DNA of 41,670 nucleotides from a virus. This document shows, piece by piece, positions 59-41,460 of the stretch. Position numbers and translations under genes: made by a program. Within the stretch, counting starts at the first letter, position 1; the number at the start of each line of letters is the position of its first letter. Below the pieces are notes generated by a model. The model was not told where the DNA came from and did no database searches. It saw only the letters and a list, made by a program, of their open reading frames with translations. The stretch lies in the IMG/VR virus record IMGVR_UViG_3300044712_001987, positions 1 through 41,670 of that record, one strand, 5' to 3'.

Positions 59-63
59 TGTTC
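59..63. repeat. Left 5-bp target-site duplication
   Basis: TGTTC lies directly before the first prophage base and recurs directly after the last one at 41456-41460. Five-base duplications are the hallmark of Mu-family transposition. The agreement of both copies with independently aligned terminal sequences fixes the boundaries. Confidence 0.93.
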
Positions 64-245
64 TGTGAATCACCAATAGGTATGGCAGTAGCCGGGAATT
101 GGCGGGATCGAGCGGGAAACCATGGGAAGGCCCAATTAAAGGGGATCGGGAGGCGAGCAAGGCAAGTCAGGGAAGACAAATACTTTGCGCGCGATTTGGC
201 AGTAAATTAATTTAGCACCGAAAAATGGCGTGCGATTTGGCAGTA
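64..245 (+). other. attL: Left end with transposase-binding sites L1, L2, L3
   Basis: Three copies of a GATTTGGCAGTA-like site lie on the plus strand: L1 at 79-90 (GGTATGGCAGTA), L2 at 193-204 and L3 at 234-245 (both GATTTGGCAGTA). They start 15, 129 and 170 bases from the left terminus. This is close to the L1/L2-L3 layout of phage Mu, with one site at the tip and a pair more than 100 bp inside. No gene is seen between the terminus and the stop codon at 268; the stretch holds only these sites. Confidence 0.85.
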
Positions 246-267: not shown

Positions 268-456
268 TTATCGCTTAGAAGATTTTTTATCTTCTTCGCA
301 ACTTCTAAATATTTTGTGACCATCGAGAATTTTAATATCTCTTTCTACGCGTTTACCAAGCGCACTCCCAGTTAGTCTTTCAGCAAACATGGATGAAGTC
401 TTGTCGAGTGTCACCCGAACTGAAAAAGGTATATCTTCGCCAAATTTACGATTCAT
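268..456 (-). CDS. 62-aa protein paired with the GAF-domain cargo protein
   Basis: I do not recognise this family. The product is small and highly charged, ending in a lysine/aspartate/serine-rich tail (CEEDKKSSKR), with no membrane segment or clear domain. Its ATG overlaps the stop codon of the upstream gene in an ATGA arrangement, so the two are translationally coupled and probably act together. It is AT-rich like its partner and unlike the rest of the element. It lies right next to the left end, the usual place for cargo in transposable phages. A partner, antitoxin-like or regulatory role is possible but not shown. Confidence 0.6.
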   Translation of the reverse strand: MNRKFGEDIPFSVRVTLDKTSSMFAERLTGSALGKRVERDIKILDGHKIFRSCEEDKKSSKR

Positions 457-1403
457 GCCGCCTCCCTCTTGAGAATATACAGGTGGTGTTCAAGTATTAA
501 TCGTGTAATAAAATGATCGAGAACCCAGGTATATAGTTCACGGTGCTTTTCTTCTAAGCAATTTTTCTTATTTCCGAGTATGCTAAGAACATAGATTGGC
601 TTTCGCACATTTGGACAATAAATTGGACAAGCAAGGATTGATCCACTATCGTGTGGTTGTATATTTCCTTTTATAATATTTCTTTCGACCTTACTATTTT
701 TCTTTAATTCTGCTTGAATATCAGAAACTATTATCATAGTTCCAGTAGTTAATGCTCGCATTATAGTGCTTGTTGGAGATGAAAGTCTATCTGGGCTGGT
801 CCGAGGTGGATGTGTTGTTGGAGCAAAAGCAAACCAGTCATCTGGCTTATTGTCTTTTATTGACATTAGCCCTACTCTAAACTCAACCTCATCATTTTGC
901 AGATATTCAAATACACCCTTTACCCCACATGCTAGCAATCCAATTTGTTGTGTAGGTTGTGTTATGTTATTGAAGATATCAGTAGAAATCCATCTTTCAG
1001 AAAGTGATTTTTTTGTGTCTCTAAGAAATCGTTCCGATTTTGCCAAAACTACTTGATTTATAGATTCAAGAATTGAAAGTATATCTTCTCTATCAAGTGC
1101 GCTATTTGGTTTTGAATAATGAGATACTACACCTTTTAGCCCTTTTGCTAATTGGCTTAGAGCATATATTATTGCAACTAAAACCAAGTGGTTTGTTTTT
1201 AAGACATTAGTAGCTCTACCTCCTATTGCTGACGATAATTGAGCTGATAAATTAGCATTAGATAGGATAGTGACGATAAAAGAAGTCGGTAAAATAAATA
1301 ACAATGGACCAAATATAAATTTTACCGACCAATGTTCATATTGGGAAGATATCCATGAACAAATTTTGGTTACCCTCGACGTCCTGAATTCAGGCAATTT
1401 CAT
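453..1403 (-). CDS. Two-TM membrane protein with cytoplasmic GAF-like domain (cargo)
   Basis: This 316-aa protein has hydrophobic segments at about 28-48 and 70-88, a linker or coiled stretch at about 100-135, and then a GAF-like region at about 140-305. The end of that region reads SGSILACPIY...PIYVLSILGN...F-T-L, the pattern of the last strands and helix of GAF sensor folds. No kinase or cyclase domain follows, so the GAF part may itself sense a ligand at the membrane. AAGGA lies 12 nt before the ATG and a TATAAT box (1406-1411 read leftward) lies directly upstream. The gene is strongly AT-rich and is coupled to the 62-aa gene. Its place beside the left end suggests a lysogenic cargo function such as defence. 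The GAF call is moderate; the function is inferred only from context. Confidence 0.6.
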   Translation of the reverse strand: MKLPEFRTSRVTKICSWISSQYEHWSVKFIFGPLLFILPTSFIVTILSNANLSAQLSSAIGGRATNVLKTNHLVLVAIIYALSQLAKGLKGVVSHYSKPNSALDREDILSILESINQVVLAKSERFLRDTKKSLSERWISTDIFNNITQPTQQIGLLACGVKGVFEYLQNDEVEFRVGLMSIKDNKPDDWFAFAPTTHPPRTSPDRLSSPTSTIMRALTTGTMIIVSDIQAELKKNSKVERNIIKGNIQPHDSGSILACPIYCPNVRKPIYVLSILGNKKNCLEEKHRELYTWVLDHFITRLILEHHLYILKREAA

Positions 1404-1498: not shown

Positions 1499-1549
1499 GA
1501 TTGGCAGAAAAGTCTAGCTGAACAAAACTGACGCGCGATTAGGCGGTAA
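1499..1549 (+). repeat. Internal degenerate copies of the left-end site
   Basis: CGCGCGATTAGGCGGTAA at 1532-1549 matches 16 of 18 bases of the L2 site at 188-205, in the same orientation. A weaker copy, GATTGGCAG, starts at 1499, 38 bp before the GATT at 1537; L2 and L3 are 41 bp apart. The pair looks like a decayed L2-L3 block on the inner side of the AT-rich cargo. It could be a relic of an earlier left end, an extra transposase site, or the scar of cargo exchange. Confidence 0.55.
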
Positions 1550-1560
1550 GAAATATAGAT

Positions 1561-2736
1561 TTAACCCGTCGCCTCTGGCTCACTGACCTTCTTTCTAAAA
1601 TTCTCATCGTCTTTACAGAAAGTAAGCGAATCAAAAATCAATCCTGACAGTTTCATGAGGTGTTCAGGCTTAGAAATGATAATCCCATTTGCGGTTCCGA
1701 TTTCAAGCCCAGCCTGCCTAATCGCTTCTTTACGTTCTTCAGATAGCTCGACAATAAATTGCACTGCCGGGCGCTGCTTATCTCCCTGATAGCGGAGAAT
1801 CCAGCGATTTACCTTGCCTTGGTAAAGAACCGAGTAATACGATTCCGTGTCCTTCCCAACAATTTCATCTGTGTCAACCAACCCGCTTACTATTTCTCTT
1901 ACAATATACAAGATTTTTCTTTCAGCTGCTGTGGTCACGATTTTGGGATTTACCGCGTCAACAAAATCTTCTTCCATTTCATCCAAGGCTCCTTGAGGAC
2001 TTTTGTTTCCGGCCTGAGATGATGGTGGCGTGCTAAGGCCGCTGACCACCATTTTCCCCATGGCCGCTGCGACCGATTGTTTTACTAGAGGAGTTATTGA
2101 CTCCAGAAACTTCACTGTCAGTTTAGGAGCCAAGTCCGCGCGGATAGCGATCAGTCTCACAAAGTCCTGATCTACCTCACGTAAACAGCTTTCTATGGCA
2201 TCCTGGAATATGGAGAGAAGTATACGGTCTTCGGCAAAGGTGCGGAGGGCTTCAGGGTGAAATTGATCATACCGGAAATGGTAAAGCTGTTCGGCGGCCG
2301 AGTCGGAAAGCTCATGAAAATCGACCATAAGAAACGGATCTGGGTCCATGATGTTCTGCTGCTTCAAATCGGTGTAGAAGCGCCATTCACGGCCGTTTGA
2401 TATTGCAGCGATAGTAACGCCAGGCGTAGCGTTAAAGTACCGCGCCAGTTGACTGGTGTGGTTGGTGATCTTTTCAATAAAGGGTTTCGCCTCAACAAAC
2501 ATGACCGGACGTGCGTCGGAAAACAGGGCGTAATCTACCCTTTCATTCGCCTTTAGACCAGGGAGATCGGCAGTGTACTCTGCTTTAACCCTGGTAGGAT
2601 CAAAAGGGCTGAAACCTAGAATATCCAGAAACGGCAGGATTAGAGCCTGCTTTGTGGTTTCCTCAGTATTGCAGTGCGGCCCTACGCTCTTGACGTGTTC
2701 AACGTGGCGCAGCAGTCTCTCCTTAAATTCCAGCAT
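1561..2736 (-). CDS. Type I restriction R-subunit N-terminal-like nuclease (PD-(D/E)xK)
   Basis: The 391-aa product carries the HSDR_N-type nuclease fold at its N-terminus: E25/E26 in the first helix, ILPFLDILGF at 33-42, then D68 in VDYALFSD and E82-A-K84 in FVEAKPF, which form the D...ExK catalytic core. There is no helicase motor, so it is not a full HsdR subunit. The C-terminal half (about 270-380) is unassigned. AAAGGAGG precedes the ATG. The gene follows the repressor after 27 bp on the same strand and should be transcribed in the lysogen with it. Related single-domain proteins are common in prophages. A role in DNA restriction or superinfection exclusion is an inference. Confidence 0.75.
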   Translation of the reverse strand: MLEFKERLLRHVEHVKSVGPHCNTEETTKQALILPFLDILGFSPFDPTRVKAEYTADLPGLKANERVDYALFSDARPVMFVEAKPFIEKITNHTSQLARYFNATPGVTIAAISNGREWRFYTDLKQQNIMDPDPFLMVDFHELSDSAAEQLYHFRYDQFHPEALRTFAEDRILLSIFQDAIESCLREVDQDFVRLIAIRADLAPKLTVKFLESITPLVKQSVAAAMGKMVVSGLSTPPSSQAGNKSPQGALDEMEEDFVDAVNPKIVTTAAERKILYIVREIVSGLVDTDEIVGKDTESYYSVLYQGKVNRWILRYQGDKQRPAVQFIVELSEERKEAIRQAGLEIGTANGIIISKPEHLMKLSGLIFDSLTFCKDDENFRKKVSEPEATG

Positions 2737-2763: not shown

Positions 2764-3444
2764 CTACATTCTCCTCCCACTCCACACCACGCGACCGACG
2801 ACATGCAGGTCGTTGACCTCAGTCTCAGTAACAACTTCAGGATCATAGATTTTGTTGTCTGATTTGATAATCAGTGATCCGTCCCGCCTACGCTGAACAC
2901 GTTTCACCATCAGAGAGCCGTTGTACCGCAGCACATAAATGGCGTTATCCTCAACCCTCCTTGTGCCGGTGTCGACCAGGATCAGGTCGCCATTGGAGAG
3001 CGTCGGCTCCATACTGTCGCCCTTCACGCTTATCAGGGCAAGGGCCTGGACCGAGACGTCCAAGGCATTCCGCACCCACTCAGAGCGGAATGCCAGGTGG
3101 TCCACGATCTGTTCGCTGTGGACCATGGCTCCGCCGCCTGCACTGGCTGCTACCTCATAGCGCGGGACCAGGACGAAGTCCTCGCCCAGGTCCTTGCCGG
3201 TTGTGTATTCCCCTGCCGGCCCTGCCTCATCCCGCTTCATCGGACCGTCGCCGGTCGCAAGCCAGCCAAGACAAACACCGGCAGCATGAGCAATAACCTC
3301 TAATGTGTCAAGAGGGGGATAAGTTTCGCCGAGTAAATATCGGCGCAGTGTTCCTTCAGAAATGGCGCACTTGTCGGCAAATGAGCGGTTCGATATGCCG
3401 TTCATTGCCTTTTTTAACCTGCCCTTGAACGCGTCAGAGTTCAT
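2764..3444 (-). CDS. CI/LexA-type phage repressor (XRE HTH + S24 peptidase)
   Basis: The 226-aa product has an N-terminal helix-turn-helix (about 6-62; SFADKCAISEGTLRRYLLG is the recognition region) and a C-terminal S24 peptidase fold. The catalytic serine is S144 in GDSMEPT and the general base is K181 in LMVKRVQ. The likely self-cleavage bond is A102-G103 in AASAGGG. RecA-stimulated autocleavage, hence induction by DNA damage, is expected from the family. It replaces the Mu-type c repressor. It should bind the AACTCTGAC sites at 3431-3565, one inverted pair of which covers its own start codon, implying autoregulation. No Shine-Dalgarno sequence is visible, so translation may be weak or leaderless. 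Confidence 0.9.
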   Translation of the reverse strand: MNSDAFKGRLKKAMNGISNRSFADKCAISEGTLRRYLLGETYPPLDTLEVIAHAAGVCLGWLATGDGPMKRDEAGPAGEYTTGKDLGEDFVLVPRYEVAASAGGGAMVHSEQIVDHLAFRSEWVRNALDVSVQALALISVKGDSMEPTLSNGDLILVDTGTRRVEDNAIYVLRYNGSLMVKRVQRRRDGSLIIKSDNKIYDPEVVTETEVNDLHVVGRVVWSGRRM

Positions 3445-4301: not shown

Positions 4302-6437
4302 ATGTCCGGAAAAGTAGCAAAAACTCACTACACCGCCAAGGAATTAGCCGGGCTTCCGGGGTTGCCAGATACTGAGAGCGGCGTCATTCGCAAGGCAAAG
4401 TCAGAATTATGGCCCTCCCAAAAGCGCACCGGCCGCGGCGGCGGCCGCGAGTACCCTATCACCGCCCTGCCTGCCGAGACGCAGGATCACCTCATTAACC
4501 AAATGGTTGTAGATCTCCCTGAAAAGGCATGTCAGCTCCCCGCCGTCCGCGAGGCTTCAGTCATAGCCGAACCACAACCGGCCACCTCCCTCCCGGCCGT
4601 CACCACCCTCAAGAAATGGCAGGCACAAACCATGGATGCCCGACTGGTCTTCATACGCCTCATCGAGCGGGCCGCTCCGAACATCGGCGTCACCAGGGCG
4701 ATCCGCACCATTGTCAAACAGGCTACTGAAGAGACACTCCCGCCCGAGGTCGCGGGCCTTGTACCACTCGCCAACGCCCGCAAGGGCGCGGACGGCTCCC
4801 GCACACTATCGGAGCGGTCACTACTGCGCTGGTGGTCGGAGTACAAAAAGGCCGGCTCTTATGCCGCCCTGGCGCCGAGGGCCACGGAGCATAACGACCT
4901 GCCTGCCTGGGCGCCATACTTTCTCCAGGTCTACCGCGTCCCGCAGAAGATCAGCGTGGATCACGCACTGGAGGATCTGGCCGCCATCCTCCCCGAAGGG
5001 ATACCGATGCCGAGCGAGAGCCAGGCCCGCCGCTTTATCAAGAAGTACAGCCGCCTGGAGATCCAGAAGGGGCGCATGACCGGCAAGGAGCTGAAGAGCC
5101 TGAAGGGCTTCATCCGCCGCGACACCAGCGAGTTCCTTCCCCTCGACATTTGTCTCTGCGACGGCCATTCGTTCAAAGCCGACGTGGCCCATCCGGTTCA
5201 CGGCAGGCCCTTCAAGCCCGAGGTGTGCGGCGTCATCGACGCCGTAACTCGCGTGTGTCTCGGCTGGAGCGCCGGGCTGGCCGAATCCTCACAAACCGTG
5301 GCCGACGCCTACCGGCATGCGGTCACCGTCAATGATGAAAAGCGCTACGGCGGTATTCCCGCCATCCTCTATGCCGACAAGGGCGCAGGCAACGAAGCGA
5401 TCGTCAACTCCGATCCTTTCTGCGGCATGTATGCGCGCATGGGTAGCACCTACAAGACCGGCATCCCCGGCAATTCCCAGGCCCGCGGGCTTATCGAGAA
5501 GATGCAGGATAGCCTCTGGATCCGCGCGGCCAAGAAGCTCCCAACCTACAGCGGCAAAGGCATGGATGATCAGGTCCGGCGCAAGGTGTACCTGGCCATG
5601 GAAAAGGACGTGAAACAGGCGTTAAAGACGGGCAAAGAGGGGAAGAAATCGCAATTGCTGCTCTCCTGGCTTGAATTCCTCGACTTCTGTCAGGCCGAGG
5701 TCGAAGCCTACAACCGGCGACCCCACTCGGCCCTTCCGCGGATAACAGATTCCGAGACCGGCCTGCGCCGCCACATGTGCCCGCTGGAGATGTGGAGCGC
5801 CTTCCTGGCCGAAGGCTGGGCAGCAACGGTCCCTGAGCCCAGTGAAATGGATATCCTGTTCAGGCCGCATGTCACCGTAACCACCCGCCGCGGCGAGGTG
5901 CGCCTGTTCGGAAACGTCTACTATGCGGCGGACCTGGTCCACTACAACGGTGAAACCGTCATCGTCGCCTATGACATCCACGACGCCCAGCAGGTTTTGG
6001 TTAAGGACCAGGACGAGCGGCTCATCGCAATAGCCGGATGGAACGCCAACAAGAAGGCTTTTTACCCGGTCTCCGCAGTCGAGCAGGCGCGCGAGGACCG
6101 CAAGAACCGGCGTATCAAGACATTGGAGCGTCACCTGGACGAGGTGCAGGCTGAGGCCGACGTTCCGCTCCTGACCGACTGCAGAGAGTTGCCTCCAGAA
6201 GTCATAGCTTTTGAAGAAAAACAGAAAGAGAAGGAAACGAGAAAAGAAGAAAACAGAAAGCGGTTTTTCAACGACATCAACGAGGTCTATGACGACATCC
6301 GGGCACGGCAAAAACAGGGGCTCGCGTCGGAATATGAAACCACCTGGGCGGACGACAAGGACCGCTCCGGGGCCAAGCGGGTGGGGCTCTACAAGACCGA
6401 CCCCGATTGCGCGGGCAGGTTCAAGATTGCCAAATAA
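4302..6437 (+). CDS. A: MuA-like DDE transposase
   Basis: This protein carries out strand transfer for integration and replicative transposition. From the ATG at 4302 it has 711 residues; a TTG at 4281 would add seven without a better ribosome site. Order of domains: an N-terminal winged-helix Mu-type DNA-binding domain (about 8-65, YTAKELAGLPGLP), helical end-binding domains (about 100-250), and an RNase H-like core with D287 (LCDGHSF), D359 (YADKGAGN) and E399 (GLIEKMQD). A beta-barrel follows (about 490-560), and then a charged helical tail that in Mu contacts MuB and ClpX. Its expected binding sites are the GATTTGGCAGTA repeats at both ends. B follows after 80 bp. Confidence 0.96.
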   Translation: MSGKVAKTHYTAKELAGLPGLPDTESGVIRKAKSELWPSQKRTGRGGGREYPITALPAETQDHLINQMVVDLPEKACQLPAVREASVIAEPQPATSLPAVTTLKKWQAQTMDARLVFIRLIERAAPNIGVTRAIRTIVKQATEETLPPEVAGLVPLANARKGADGSRTLSERSLLRWWSEYKKAGSYAALAPRATEHNDLPAWAPYFLQVYRVPQKISVDHALEDLAAILPEGIPMPSESQARRFIKKYSRLEIQKGRMTGKELKSLKGFIRRDTSEFLPLDICLCDGHSFKADVAHPVHGRPFKPEVCGVIDAVTRVCLGWSAGLAESSQTVADAYRHAVTVNDEKRYGGIPAILYADKGAGNEAIVNSDPFCGMYARMGSTYKTGIPGNSQARGLIEKMQDSLWIRAAKKLPTYSGKGMDDQVRRKVYLAMEKDVKQALKTGKEGKKSQLLLSWLEFLDFCQAEVEAYNRRPHSALPRITDSETGLRRHMCPLEMWSAFLAEGWAATVPEPSEMDILFRPHVTVTTRRGEVRLFGNVYYAADLVHYNGETVIVAYDIHDAQQVLVKDQDERLIAIAGWNANKKAFYPVSAVEQAREDRKNRRIKTLERHLDEVQAEADVPLLTDCRELPPEVIAFEEKQKEKETRKEENRKRFFNDINEVYDDIRARQKQGLASEYETTWADDKDRSGAKRVGLYKTDPDCAGRFKIAK

Positions 6438-6441
6438 AAAA

Positions 6442-6489
6442 GCCGCCTGGTGTCTTCACCACCGGCGGCCAACTCCCCGCGAAAGCGGG
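6442..6489. other. Two hairpins between A and B
   Basis: A GCCGCC...GGCGGC stem extended by TGGTG/CACCA (6442-6469, with a small bulge) is followed by CCCGC-GAAA-GCGGG (6476-6489). Neither has a T-run, so they are unlikely to terminate. They may affect mRNA stability or the relative yield of transposase and ATPase. Confidence 0.4.
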
Positions 6490-6517
6490 AATAACTTGGA
6501 TAGGGGGACTATAGCAG

Positions 6518-7261
6518 ATGAAACACGAAATGGTCAAAACAAAAGACGTCCGGCGCTTCATGCAGAGCGTCGAAGACCTCTTGAACCGCCCCATGGGCAC
6601 CGAGGGCATGGGGCTCCTGTGGGGACCTCCCGGCACCGGAAAAACCACCTCCCTGGCCTATGTGGCCAACGTTTATGACGCGGTCTATGTTCGCGCCGTG
6701 GGTTGCTGGACCGTTACCTCCATGCTCGGCGATCTGTGCCGCGAGTTGGGCGGGAAACGGATGCTGAGGCGCTCCGACATGGTGGAATACATCGTCGAGG
6801 AGCTCACCAAGGACGGCCGCCAGCCGCGACCGATATTCATTGACGAGGCCGACTACTGCTTCCGCCAGTTCGAGATGGTCGACTCCCTGCGCGACATTTA
6901 TGACCTCTCCGGCTGCCCGGTGATCCTCATCGGCATGGAAGACATCGCCCGCCGTATCCGCACCCATGAGCGGATCGCCCGCCGCATCACCCAGTGGATC
7001 GAATTCAAGGGCCTCGACTTCGACGACACGGTCCAGGTAGAAAGTGAGGTCTGCGAAGTGACGCTCGCCGAAGATCTTATCCGCCACCTCCATGCGGCGA
7101 CCTCGGGCAACATCGGCCGTATCATCATCGGCCTGACCAAGATCGAGAAATTCGCCCTGGCCAACGGACTGGATACCATCTCCGCCGCTGATTGGGGAGA
7201 GCGACCCCTTTACTTCGACCAGCCCACCTTCGGCCGAAAAAAGGCCGGCAACGGGACATAA
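6518..7261 (+). CDS. B: MuB-like AAA+ ATPase (target selection)
   Basis: The 247-aa protein belongs to the MuB/TniB AAA+ group, which binds DNA in an ATP-dependent way, activates the transposase and selects target sites away from the element's own ends. Walker A is GPPGTGKTT (36-44) and Walker B is IFIDEAD (106-112, D109-E110). A C-terminal helical part follows. It lacks the long N-terminal DNA-binding appendage of Mu B (312 aa), a common difference in non-enterobacterial Mu-like phages. AGGGGG lies about 10 nt upstream of the ATG. Confidence 0.93.
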   Translation: MKHEMVKTKDVRRFMQSVEDLLNRPMGTEGMGLLWGPPGTGKTTSLAYVANVYDAVYVRAVGCWTVTSMLGDLCRELGGKRMLRRSDMVEYIVEELTKDGRQPRPIFIDEADYCFRQFEMVDSLRDIYDLSGCPVILIGMEDIARRIRTHERIARRITQWIEFKGLDFDDTVQVESEVCEVTLAEDLIRHLHAATSGNIGRIIIGLTKIEKFALANGLDTISAADWGERPLYFDQPTFGRKKAGNGT

Positions 7262-7347
7262 CCCTCTTTTGAACATGCGATATCGGGGCGTAGGACTTTG
7301 GGATAGACCAAAACCACTACACTGAGATGCATTCAAAGGAGGAGTGA

Positions 7348-7761
7348 ATGGCTGGGAAGAAAGGAATGTACCACAAGAAACCTGACGCGAAGGCCGTCAG
7401 GAGGATGATCTGGAGAAGCATGCGGGTAATGCGGACGTTTACGCTGGCGGGGCTGGCGGTTACCGTCCCAGGCGCAACCTACGGCAATGTCAGAAAGTTT
7501 GTACACGGCATGCACCGGCATGGCGTCGTCACCAAGATCGGCGGTTACGTAAGCGGCAGGGCCGGGGATCAACAGCAGTATCACCTGGTTAAAAACAGCG
7601 GGCCGGTCTACCCGACCGTGTGCGAAAAGTGCGGACAGCCTCTGTCCGCTAAAATTTGCGACCCGTCTTTAAAAGAAAGAGAGAAAGAGAAAGAGACAAA
7701 GAAAGAAAGAGAGGAGGTGGTGACCGATGACCACGACCGACCGGATGCAACTGCTGCGTGA
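7348..7761 (+). CDS. Early protein with predicted winged-helix and Cys pair
   Basis: The first about 85 residues of this 137-aa protein look like a winged helix-turn-helix (AGLAVTVPGATYGNVRKFVH, then HGVVTKIGGYV). One CEKCGQ zinc-knuckle half follows, and then a long charged tail of Lys/Glu repeats (KEREKEKETKKERE). AAAGGAGGAG before the ATG is a strong ribosome site. An 86-bp gap before it shows no feature. It lies where Mu carries its semi-essential early genes; function unknown. Confidence 0.7.
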   Translation: MAGKKGMYHKKPDAKAVRRMIWRSMRVMRTFTLAGLAVTVPGATYGNVRKFVHGMHRHGVVTKIGGYVSGRAGDQQQYHLVKNSGPVYPTVCEKCGQPLSAKICDPSLKEREKEKETKKEREEVVTDDHDRPDATAA

Positions 7762-8038
7762 TAAGTGCGCCGAGCTCGGCCAGGCCGAAGTCGCCCGCCG
7801 CCTCGATTACTCGCCGTCGGCCATTAACCAGGCGCTGCAGGGCAAGTACCAGGGCGCCTTGGACAACCTGCTGACCAGGGTAGAAGAGATATTCGGCTGC
7901 ACTACCGTCATTTGCCCGATACTCGGCGAGATATCACTCCGGAAATGCTCCGAGAACAGAAAGCGCCCGTTCGCAGCGACGAACCCGCTGCGGGTGCAGC
8001 TGTACCGGCAATGCAGAAAGTGCGGGGGGAGGCCATGA
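7727..8038 (+). CDS. HTH protein of Mu-like early region
   Basis: A helix-turn-helix occupies about residues 8-55 (LGQAEVARRLDYSPSAINQAL), and the tail ends in a Cys cluster (CRKCGGRP). Short HTH proteins of this kind are frequent in early operons of Mu-like phages and are thought to be regulators; no target is known here. It overlaps the previous gene by 35 bp and is preceded by GAGGAGG. Length 103 aa. Confidence 0.7.
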   Translation: MTTTDRMQLLRDKCAELGQAEVARRLDYSPSAINQALQGKYQGALDNLLTRVEEIFGCTTVICPILGEISLRKCSENRKRPFAATNPLRVQLYRQCRKCGGRP

Positions 8039-40438: not shown

Positions 40439-41209
40439 GTGAGACATTATCCGATTCTTGCATGGCCCGGCGGTAAGCGACGCCTGGCGAAGGTACTTAT
40501 ACCGATGATAAACAGCAAGCCCCACACCTGCTACGTAGAGGAATTCGCAGGGGGAGGTTCTATGTTCTTTTTCAGACAACCGGCTGAGGTGGAGGTTTTA
40601 AACGATGCCAACAACGAGCTTATAAATCTTTACCGCGTCGTAAAGAACCATTTAGAAGAGTTTATACGGCAGTTCAAGTTTGCCCTCTCAAGCCGGAAAT
40701 TGTTCGAGTGGGCGAAGGCAACCCCGACCGAAGTTCTGACCGATATCCAACGCGCCGCGAGGTTTCTCTATATTCAAAAACTGGCCTTTGGTGGCAAGGT
40801 TACTGGTCAAAATTTCGGTGTTTCACCCAGTGAGCCGCCTCGATTCAACATCCTCCGCCTGGAAGAGGACCTCAGCCAGGCCCATCTTCGGCTGGCTCGG
40901 GTCTGGATCGAGCATCTCGACTGGCATGCATGCCTGAACAAATACGACAGGGACTATACGCTTCATTTTATGGACCCGCCGTACTACGAGCTGGAAGGCT
41001 ACGGAATGCCGTTCCCCCTCGAGGAATACCAAAAGATCGCCGAGGCCATGCATACCATGAAGGGTAGCGCCATTCTTACCATCAACGACCATCCGGAAAT
41101 GAAGCGGATATTCAAGGGATTCACGTCCGAAACGGTAGGTATCAACTACACAATCGGCGGCGGCGGTAAAGGTAAAAACAGGCGAGAGATGATTGTCAGG
41201 ACCTGGTAG
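40439..41209 (+). CDS. dam: DNA N6-adenine methyltransferase (Dam/D12 class)
   Basis: The 256-aa protein has the D12-class order: N-terminal LAWPGGKRRLAKVL, SAM-binding EEFAGGGSMFF (35-44), a target-recognition middle (FLYIQKLAFGGKVTGQNFG) and the catalytic DPPY (179-182). It transfers a methyl group to adenine, often in GATC. It occupies the right-end position held by the DNA-modification genes in Mu, so it probably protects packaged DNA from host restriction. GTG start with GGAGG 5 nt upstream. Confidence 0.93.
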   Translation: MRHYPILAWPGGKRRLAKVLIPMINSKPHTCYVEEFAGGGSMFFFRQPAEVEVLNDANNELINLYRVVKNHLEEFIRQFKFALSSRKLFEWAKATPTEVLTDIQRAARFLYIQKLAFGGKVTGQNFGVSPSEPPRFNILRLEEDLSQAHLRLARVWIEHLDWHACLNKYDRDYTLHFMDPPYYELEGYGMPFPLEEYQKIAEAMHTMKGSAILTINDHPEMKRIFKGFTSETVGINYTIGGGGKGKNRREMIVRTW

Positions 41210-41405: not shown

Positions 41406-41455
41406 TTACTGTCAAATCAAATGCAAATCACTGCCAAAGCAAACGGCGCGTTACA
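41406..41455 (-). other. attR: Right end with transposase-binding sites R1, R2
   Basis: Read inward from the right tip, R1 (41440-41429, GCTTTGGCAGTG) and R2 (41418-41406, GATTTGACAGTAA) are inverted relative to the left-end sites and 21 bp apart, close to the R1-R2 spacing in Mu. The tip reads TGTAACGCGCC, and the GGCAGT core is at bases 21-26 from the end, exactly as on the left. I saw no clear R3. Confidence 0.85.
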
Positions 41456-41460
41456 TGTTC
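41456..41460. repeat. Right 5-bp target-site duplication
   Basis: TGTTC directly follows the terminal CA of the prophage and equals 59-63. Confidence 0.93.

Follow-up and report, generated by a model that had tools for sequence, protein, structure and literature searches.

The toxFtsLD9 protein of Gelidibacter mesophilus is a TM-GAF toxin that blocks division, with culture collapse as the result, and is neutralised by PanA (PMC10440598). In RexAB (lambda; P. putida P1), a prophage-encoded membrane protein and its soluble partner abort infection (PMC12894663). In PycTM of the Pycsar systems, TM segments are coupled to a small-molecule-binding type of domain. The gene pair analysed here, located in the window (the whole 41,670-nt stretch of viral DNA under analysis, IMG/VR record IMGVR_UViG_3300044712_001987), resembles each of these systems in part. 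It is a small two-gene module, putatively of the membrane-effector type, that is real, conserved, mobile and uncharacterised in all libraries searched; its most likely role is that of a mobile anti-phage or toxin-antitoxin (TA)-type module in which a small partner would restrain or trigger a GAF-gated effector. The features of the pair are as follows.

453–1403, minus strand: gene A, open reading frame (ORF) of 316 aa; two TM segments at the N-terminus are followed by a helical stalk and, at the C-terminus, by a GAF domain
1263–1319, minus strand: TM segment 1 (residues 29–47, Kyte-Doolittle mean 2.25)
1128–1184, minus strand: TM segment 2 (residues 74–92, Kyte-Doolittle mean 1.47)
468–956, minus strand: predicted GAF domain (about residues 150–312; topology a-b-b-a-b-a-a-b-b-a in the AlphaFold2 model; Foldseek)
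453–456, minus strand: 4-nt ATGA overlap, stop of gene A and start of gene B
268–456, minus strand: gene B, ORF of 62 aa, basic, pI 9.8, with a partner ORF in this place in 11 of 11 intact loci
1424–1475, no strand assigned: 16-nt direct repeat upstream of gene A (copies 1424–1439 and 1460–1475, 36 nt apart), a possible operator that most relatives lack

By description, toxFtsLD9 is a toxin of similar size (281 aa), with a predicted TM helix region, a GAF domain and a protein antitoxin; its partner, however, is a Panacea-domain protein rather than a basic protein of 51–74 aa, and gene B, having no Pfam match, has no detected Panacea domain. With RexAB, the pair shares the two-gene organisation, the prophage location, the proximity to the repressor gene and a membrane protein as the putative effector, but RexB has no described GAF domain, RexA is a larger DNA-binding sensor, and the window proteins match none of the Rex families in PHROGs or PADLOC. 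No Pycsar cyclase (uridylate or cytidylate) was recognised beside any copy of the pair in the flanks read or scanned. Among the relatives, the PADLOC matches to PycTM (E = 0.002, over TM2 and the stalk, in locus L043, one of 11, with no match for the window protein) and to PD-T4-4_B (E = 0.01) are too weak, and both assignments were rejected. Generally, no named defence or phage family from Pfam, PHROGs, NCBIfam or PADLOC scores above the cutoff for the window proteins, in agreement with the first-pass annotation, which recognised no known system.

Both ORFs and their overlap are located where that annotation had placed them, and hydropathy shows two TM-like peaks in protein A, for which it had proposed two TM segments; the second peak is stronger in relatives (up to 2.9). 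The positive charge before TM1 exceeds that of the loop in most family members, which suggests an N-in, C-in topology with a cytoplasmic GAF domain. The assignment of this domain was also right, though weak by sequence; by fold it is clear. A search against Pfam yields GAF_2 below the gathering cutoff for the window protein (12.3 bits vs 28.6, E = 0.2), and GAF_2 matches at E ≤ 1 are obtained for 4 of the 11 family members, the best one with E = 9e-4. By contrast with the sequence search, a Foldseek search started with the AlphaFold2 model, which was built from three sequences and has a pLDDT of about 45–80 per 10-residue block in the GAF half and low values in the N-terminal half, returns 22 PDB hits with E ≤ 0.001, of which almost all are GAF proteins, including PDE6C (E = 4e-5), fRMsr, Lcd1 with cAMP, PDE5A, PDE2A and the histidine-kinase GAF 3o5y. 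The model thus clearly predicts a GAF fold, a central antiparallel sheet with flanking helices, for the C-terminal half of protein A. Across the 11 relatives, the most conserved residues are V119, K122, F144, P150 and Q153 in the stalk, and S212, DI 228–229, GS 254–255, P260, R301, E305 and L308 in the GAF domain. Unlike the cGMP PDEs, fRMsr and the histidine-kinase GAFs that share this fold, protein A contains no catalytic or kinase output and carries an N-terminal TM hairpin. The description of the protein as lacking an output domain is therefore correct as far as an enzymatic domain is concerned but possibly misleading, as the likeliest output is the TM hairpin.

Ten further intact relatives of gene A (18–37% identical) were identified at the following loci.

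L002, Shewanella baltica plasmid pS22303: intact pair
L003, Shewanella algidipiscicola chromosome: intact pair
L004, Marinobacter salexigens: intact pair, with an insertion-split copy in L005
L014, L015, L016, L040, L041, L042 and L043, further genomes: intact pairs

A small ORF overlaps the 3' end of the large gene in all 11 intact loci, the window included, and no known family covers the window proteins above its cutoff; homologues that usually occur alone, or membership in a housekeeping family, would have spoken against the two-gene system proposed from the sequence. The overlap is ATGA (offset -3) in five loci, including the window, and for most of the others the offset lies between -7 and about -60; the Shine-Dalgarno sequence of the small gene is usually strong. 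An ATG-initiated ORF of at least 50 aa arises by chance in the same interval in 0.8–7.6% of shuffles, depending on the locus. The family is patchy, with 1/198, 4/369 and 7/237 genomes in three samples, where the counts include the seeds and the last one also a weak match. Protein A as the query gave no match in phage records, in IMG/VR or in E. coli genomes, and protein B alone gave none in phages or plasmids. A match in L045 (E = 3e-4), which is partial and lies inside a larger frame, was judged spurious. The upstream direct repeats were considered as a family-wide operator and rejected, as only the window and L043 exceed shuffles.

Two damaged copies were found. At positions 5789–6812 of L005, the GAF gene is split by an insertion with a 350-aa IS30-like transposase ORF, and the small gene is intact and identical to that of L004; at 2927–6700 of L044, where the pair follows a recombinase gene, transposase ORFs split the GAF gene and the small gene is frameshifted. 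These two cases weakly support the view that the large protein is the costly component of the pair.

The small gene of the window is preceded by a Shine-Dalgarno sequence, GGGAGG, just upstream of its ATG, and the ATGA overlap points to translational coupling of the two genes. Across the 11 intact loci, protein B is 51–74 aa long and mostly basic (pI 8–10.5; 6.1 in L043), with no Pfam match, no convincing PDB sequence match and no match to a DNA-binding family. An AlphaFold2 model (pLDDT 57) contains helices at residues 19–28 and 32–47; a ribbon-helix-helix fold is possible, although its strand is not modelled. The motif VKFSVDxTSKEAAKKL is common to L002–L004 and the motif LGNSSKEQLKKEA to L016, L040 and L041; in both, a hydrophobic stretch leads into an S/T-S-K/R-E helix start. 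What connects the two sets is their position and the resemblance of their N-termini, which read MSQ- in L041 and L002–L004; pairwise scores between the sets are not significant. The L041 partner is full-length, starting further upstream (MSQKEPRKEN...). BLASTP searches with the small proteins of the window and L002 gave no match, and shuffled-alignment z-scores were therefore used, which for the window protein are 5.3 with L014, 4.1 with L003 and 3.4 with L002. The one usable pair of gene B sequences (dN 0.07, dS 0.14, 13 differences) indicates modest selection.

The mobile unit has the same boundaries as the pair. The L002 plasmid and the L003 chromosome share a 1157-bp block with 88.7% identity that contains just the two genes; it starts 43 nt ahead of gene A and extends as far as the last codons of gene B, and the compared flanks show no other long match. 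In L043 (positions 5394–7798), the pair adjoins a tyrosine recombinase, IntI-like by inspection, and makes up a single integron cassette, delimited by GTTAGAA at 6618 and by an attC site at 7700–7798, after which comes a further gene (255 aa). An automated attC search with a strict consensus found none; the site was recognised by eye from its core TTCTAAC/GTTAGAA, and folding then supported it as palindromic (dG -28, z -5.3). Three copies, in L040, L041 and L042, directly follow tRNA genes.

Two co-translated genes on a plasmid, a prophage and an integron, together with the toxFtsLD9 precedent, are also compatible with a plain TA or addiction module that serves the maintenance of the element and has no anti-phage role. 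TA cassettes stabilise integrons and plasmids, and the layout of adjacent, co-directional genes that overlap in 11 of 11 loci is of the TA type. By TA standards, however, the large gene is long, the large-then-small arrangement is the less common TA gene order, and the location among restriction-modification (RM) and BstA genes points to defence. We consider this explanation unlikely as it stands, with the caveat that TA and defence roles are not mutually exclusive.

The genomic context in the window itself is a complete Mu-like prophage that spans positions 64–41455 of the window.

59–63, plus strand: left copy of the target-site duplication TGTTC
64–89, plus strand: left terminus of the prophage, starting with TG, with GGCAGT at nt 21–26, in the same register as in L030
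187–204, plus strand: left-end repeat 1, putative transposase site
228–245, plus strand: left-end repeat 2, putative transposase site, directly left of gene B
1531–1548, plus strand: third repeat copy, flanking the A-B cassette on its opposite side
1561–2736, minus strand: HSDR_N-type 'endonuclease' (PHROG 4225, E = 4e-125), adjoining the repressor gene
2764–3444, minus strand: repressor (Peptidase_S24 and HTH)
41430–41455, minus strand: right terminus of the prophage, inverted, with GGCAGT at nt 21–26
41456–41460, plus strand: right copy of the target-site duplication TGTTC

Between the two 5-bp TGTTC copies, the prophage begins with TGTGAATCACC... at 64 and ends with ...GTTACA at 41455; the sister phage L030, whose MuA is 69% identical to that of the window phage, starts with TGTGAACCACTAGGAGCTATGGCAGT in the same register. 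Just past the right end, the host DNA contains a tRNA-Phe gene. The sequence GCGCGATTTGGCAGTA and its variants occur in the window in three near-identical copies, against 0.08 expected, and given their similarity to the terminal sequences are best read as transposase-binding sites. The second and the third copy enclose the A-B cassette, which thus sits inside the left end of the phage, as AT-rich cargo of a Mu-like prophage. The unusual composition noted by the first-pass annotation is borne out for the first 2 kb (38–41% GC vs 55–64% in the phage body), but the GC content of the neighbouring 'endonuclease' gene and of the repressor gene is also intermediate. The same annotation put the pair outside the repressor operon, which is only partly right because all four left-end genes are on the minus strand, in the transcription order repressor, 'endonuclease', gene A, gene B; sharing the strand of the repressor, genes A and B could be expressed during lysogeny. 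The 'endonuclease' gene may be another piece of cargo or a second defence gene; its relatives occur in phages that infect hosts of several phyla. A frame at the prophage's right end (40439–41209) resembles DNA adenine methylase, and a related sequence is present in L017.

Prophage location and co-direction with the repressor gene are as in RexAB and raise the alternative that the order of action is that of RexAB, with the small basic protein serving as an infection sensor or trigger that activates the membrane protein, e.g., by binding nucleic acid. The prevailing basic character of the small proteins and their low-confidence helix-helix core, which is compatible with ribbon-helix-helix, fit this scheme as well; RexA is a large protein, in contrast, the small protein matches no DNA-binding family, and the GAF domain already offers a sensor. 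The split large gene next to an intact small gene in L005 is neutral in this respect. On balance, a trigger role of the small protein appears rather improbable compared with the preferred reading, in which it holds the effector in check.

In related Mu-like phages, other genes fill the same stretch between the left end and the repressor gene: L030 encodes a TM protein and a 323-aa protein there, L061 a hydrophobic protein of 225 aa, and L060, L064 and L080 exported-looking proteins. In L030, these genes form an overlapping two-gene cassette (565–2060) for a 187-aa hydrophobic and the 323-aa soluble protein; PADLOC has no match for them, and Pfam none above the cutoff. Accessory regions of Pseudomonas Mu-like phages are likewise mostly found in the left arm (PMC4378225). 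The presence of exported proteins in the left-end cargo is compatible with a function of the pair in signalling, in the envelope or in superinfection exclusion (a moron), with the small protein as a chaperone-like partner and no killing involved. GAF domains are mostly ligand sensors, which is in line with such a function, but protein A has no enzymatic output domain, no dedicated cyclase was recognised in the neighbourhoods examined, and the pair travels in isolation; this explanation appears very unlikely.

The preferred reading, a defence or TA-type module, draws on the company that the pair keeps elsewhere. In Marinobacter, type III Mod/Res genes are located 80 nt upstream of the pair (PADLOC, 1.8e-58 and 6.4e-176); in L003 (S. 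algidipiscicola), a BstA-like protein is encoded nearby (1.6e-20); L016 contains PDC-M41A/B candidates, and L002 a weak Mrr_cat match below the cutoff. BstA proteins form a defence family carried by prophages (PMC8585504), and integrons, described as a biobank of defence systems, lack those larger systems that have more than two genes (PMC12409362). In L014, L040 and L041, no defence gene was recognised nearby and the surrounding genes are ordinary chromosomal ones. With a handful of loci and no statistical background, the defence-gene company is suggestive only. The neighbourhood comparison that the first-pass annotation proposed thus finds the pair kept on a plasmid, in an integron cassette and beside defence genes, and its view of the pair as a candidate undescribed defence, TA or signalling system gains support from this mobility, from the defence neighbours and from the lack of a known family; among the three roles, context favours defence or TA.

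Taken together, these observations are best compatible, with a probability of roughly one half, with a mobile, self-contained immunity or TA-type module that is carried as lysogenic cargo and consists of a GAF-gated membrane effector and a small regulatory protein. Under this hypothesis, the TM hairpin would anchor the large protein, the effector, in the inner membrane with both termini inside, and the cytoplasmic helical stalk and GAF domain would gate it. The small basic protein, co-produced through translational coupling, would be the regulator, most likely keeping the effector inactive by binding the GAF domain or the stalk. An infecting phage would change the signal, either via the GAF ligand or because the small protein is lost or captured; the hairpins could then assemble into oligomers that harm the membrane or the machinery of division, and growth would halt before phage is made.

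More tentatively, and somewhat short of even odds, the pair might represent an undescribed anti-phage family whose two-TM effector is under the direct gating of a GAF domain and is kept off by a co-translated basic protein of about 55 aa, a minimal two-gene cargo of integrons, plasmids and the ends of Mu-like prophages. The natural boundaries provided by the integron cassette and the shared block imply that a 1.2-kb construct suffices for testing function, ligand and mechanism. If it is an immune or TA module, the pair would be among the smaller ones with a sensor domain and an effector in one chain, with a tiny partner gene that is easily missed by gene callers.
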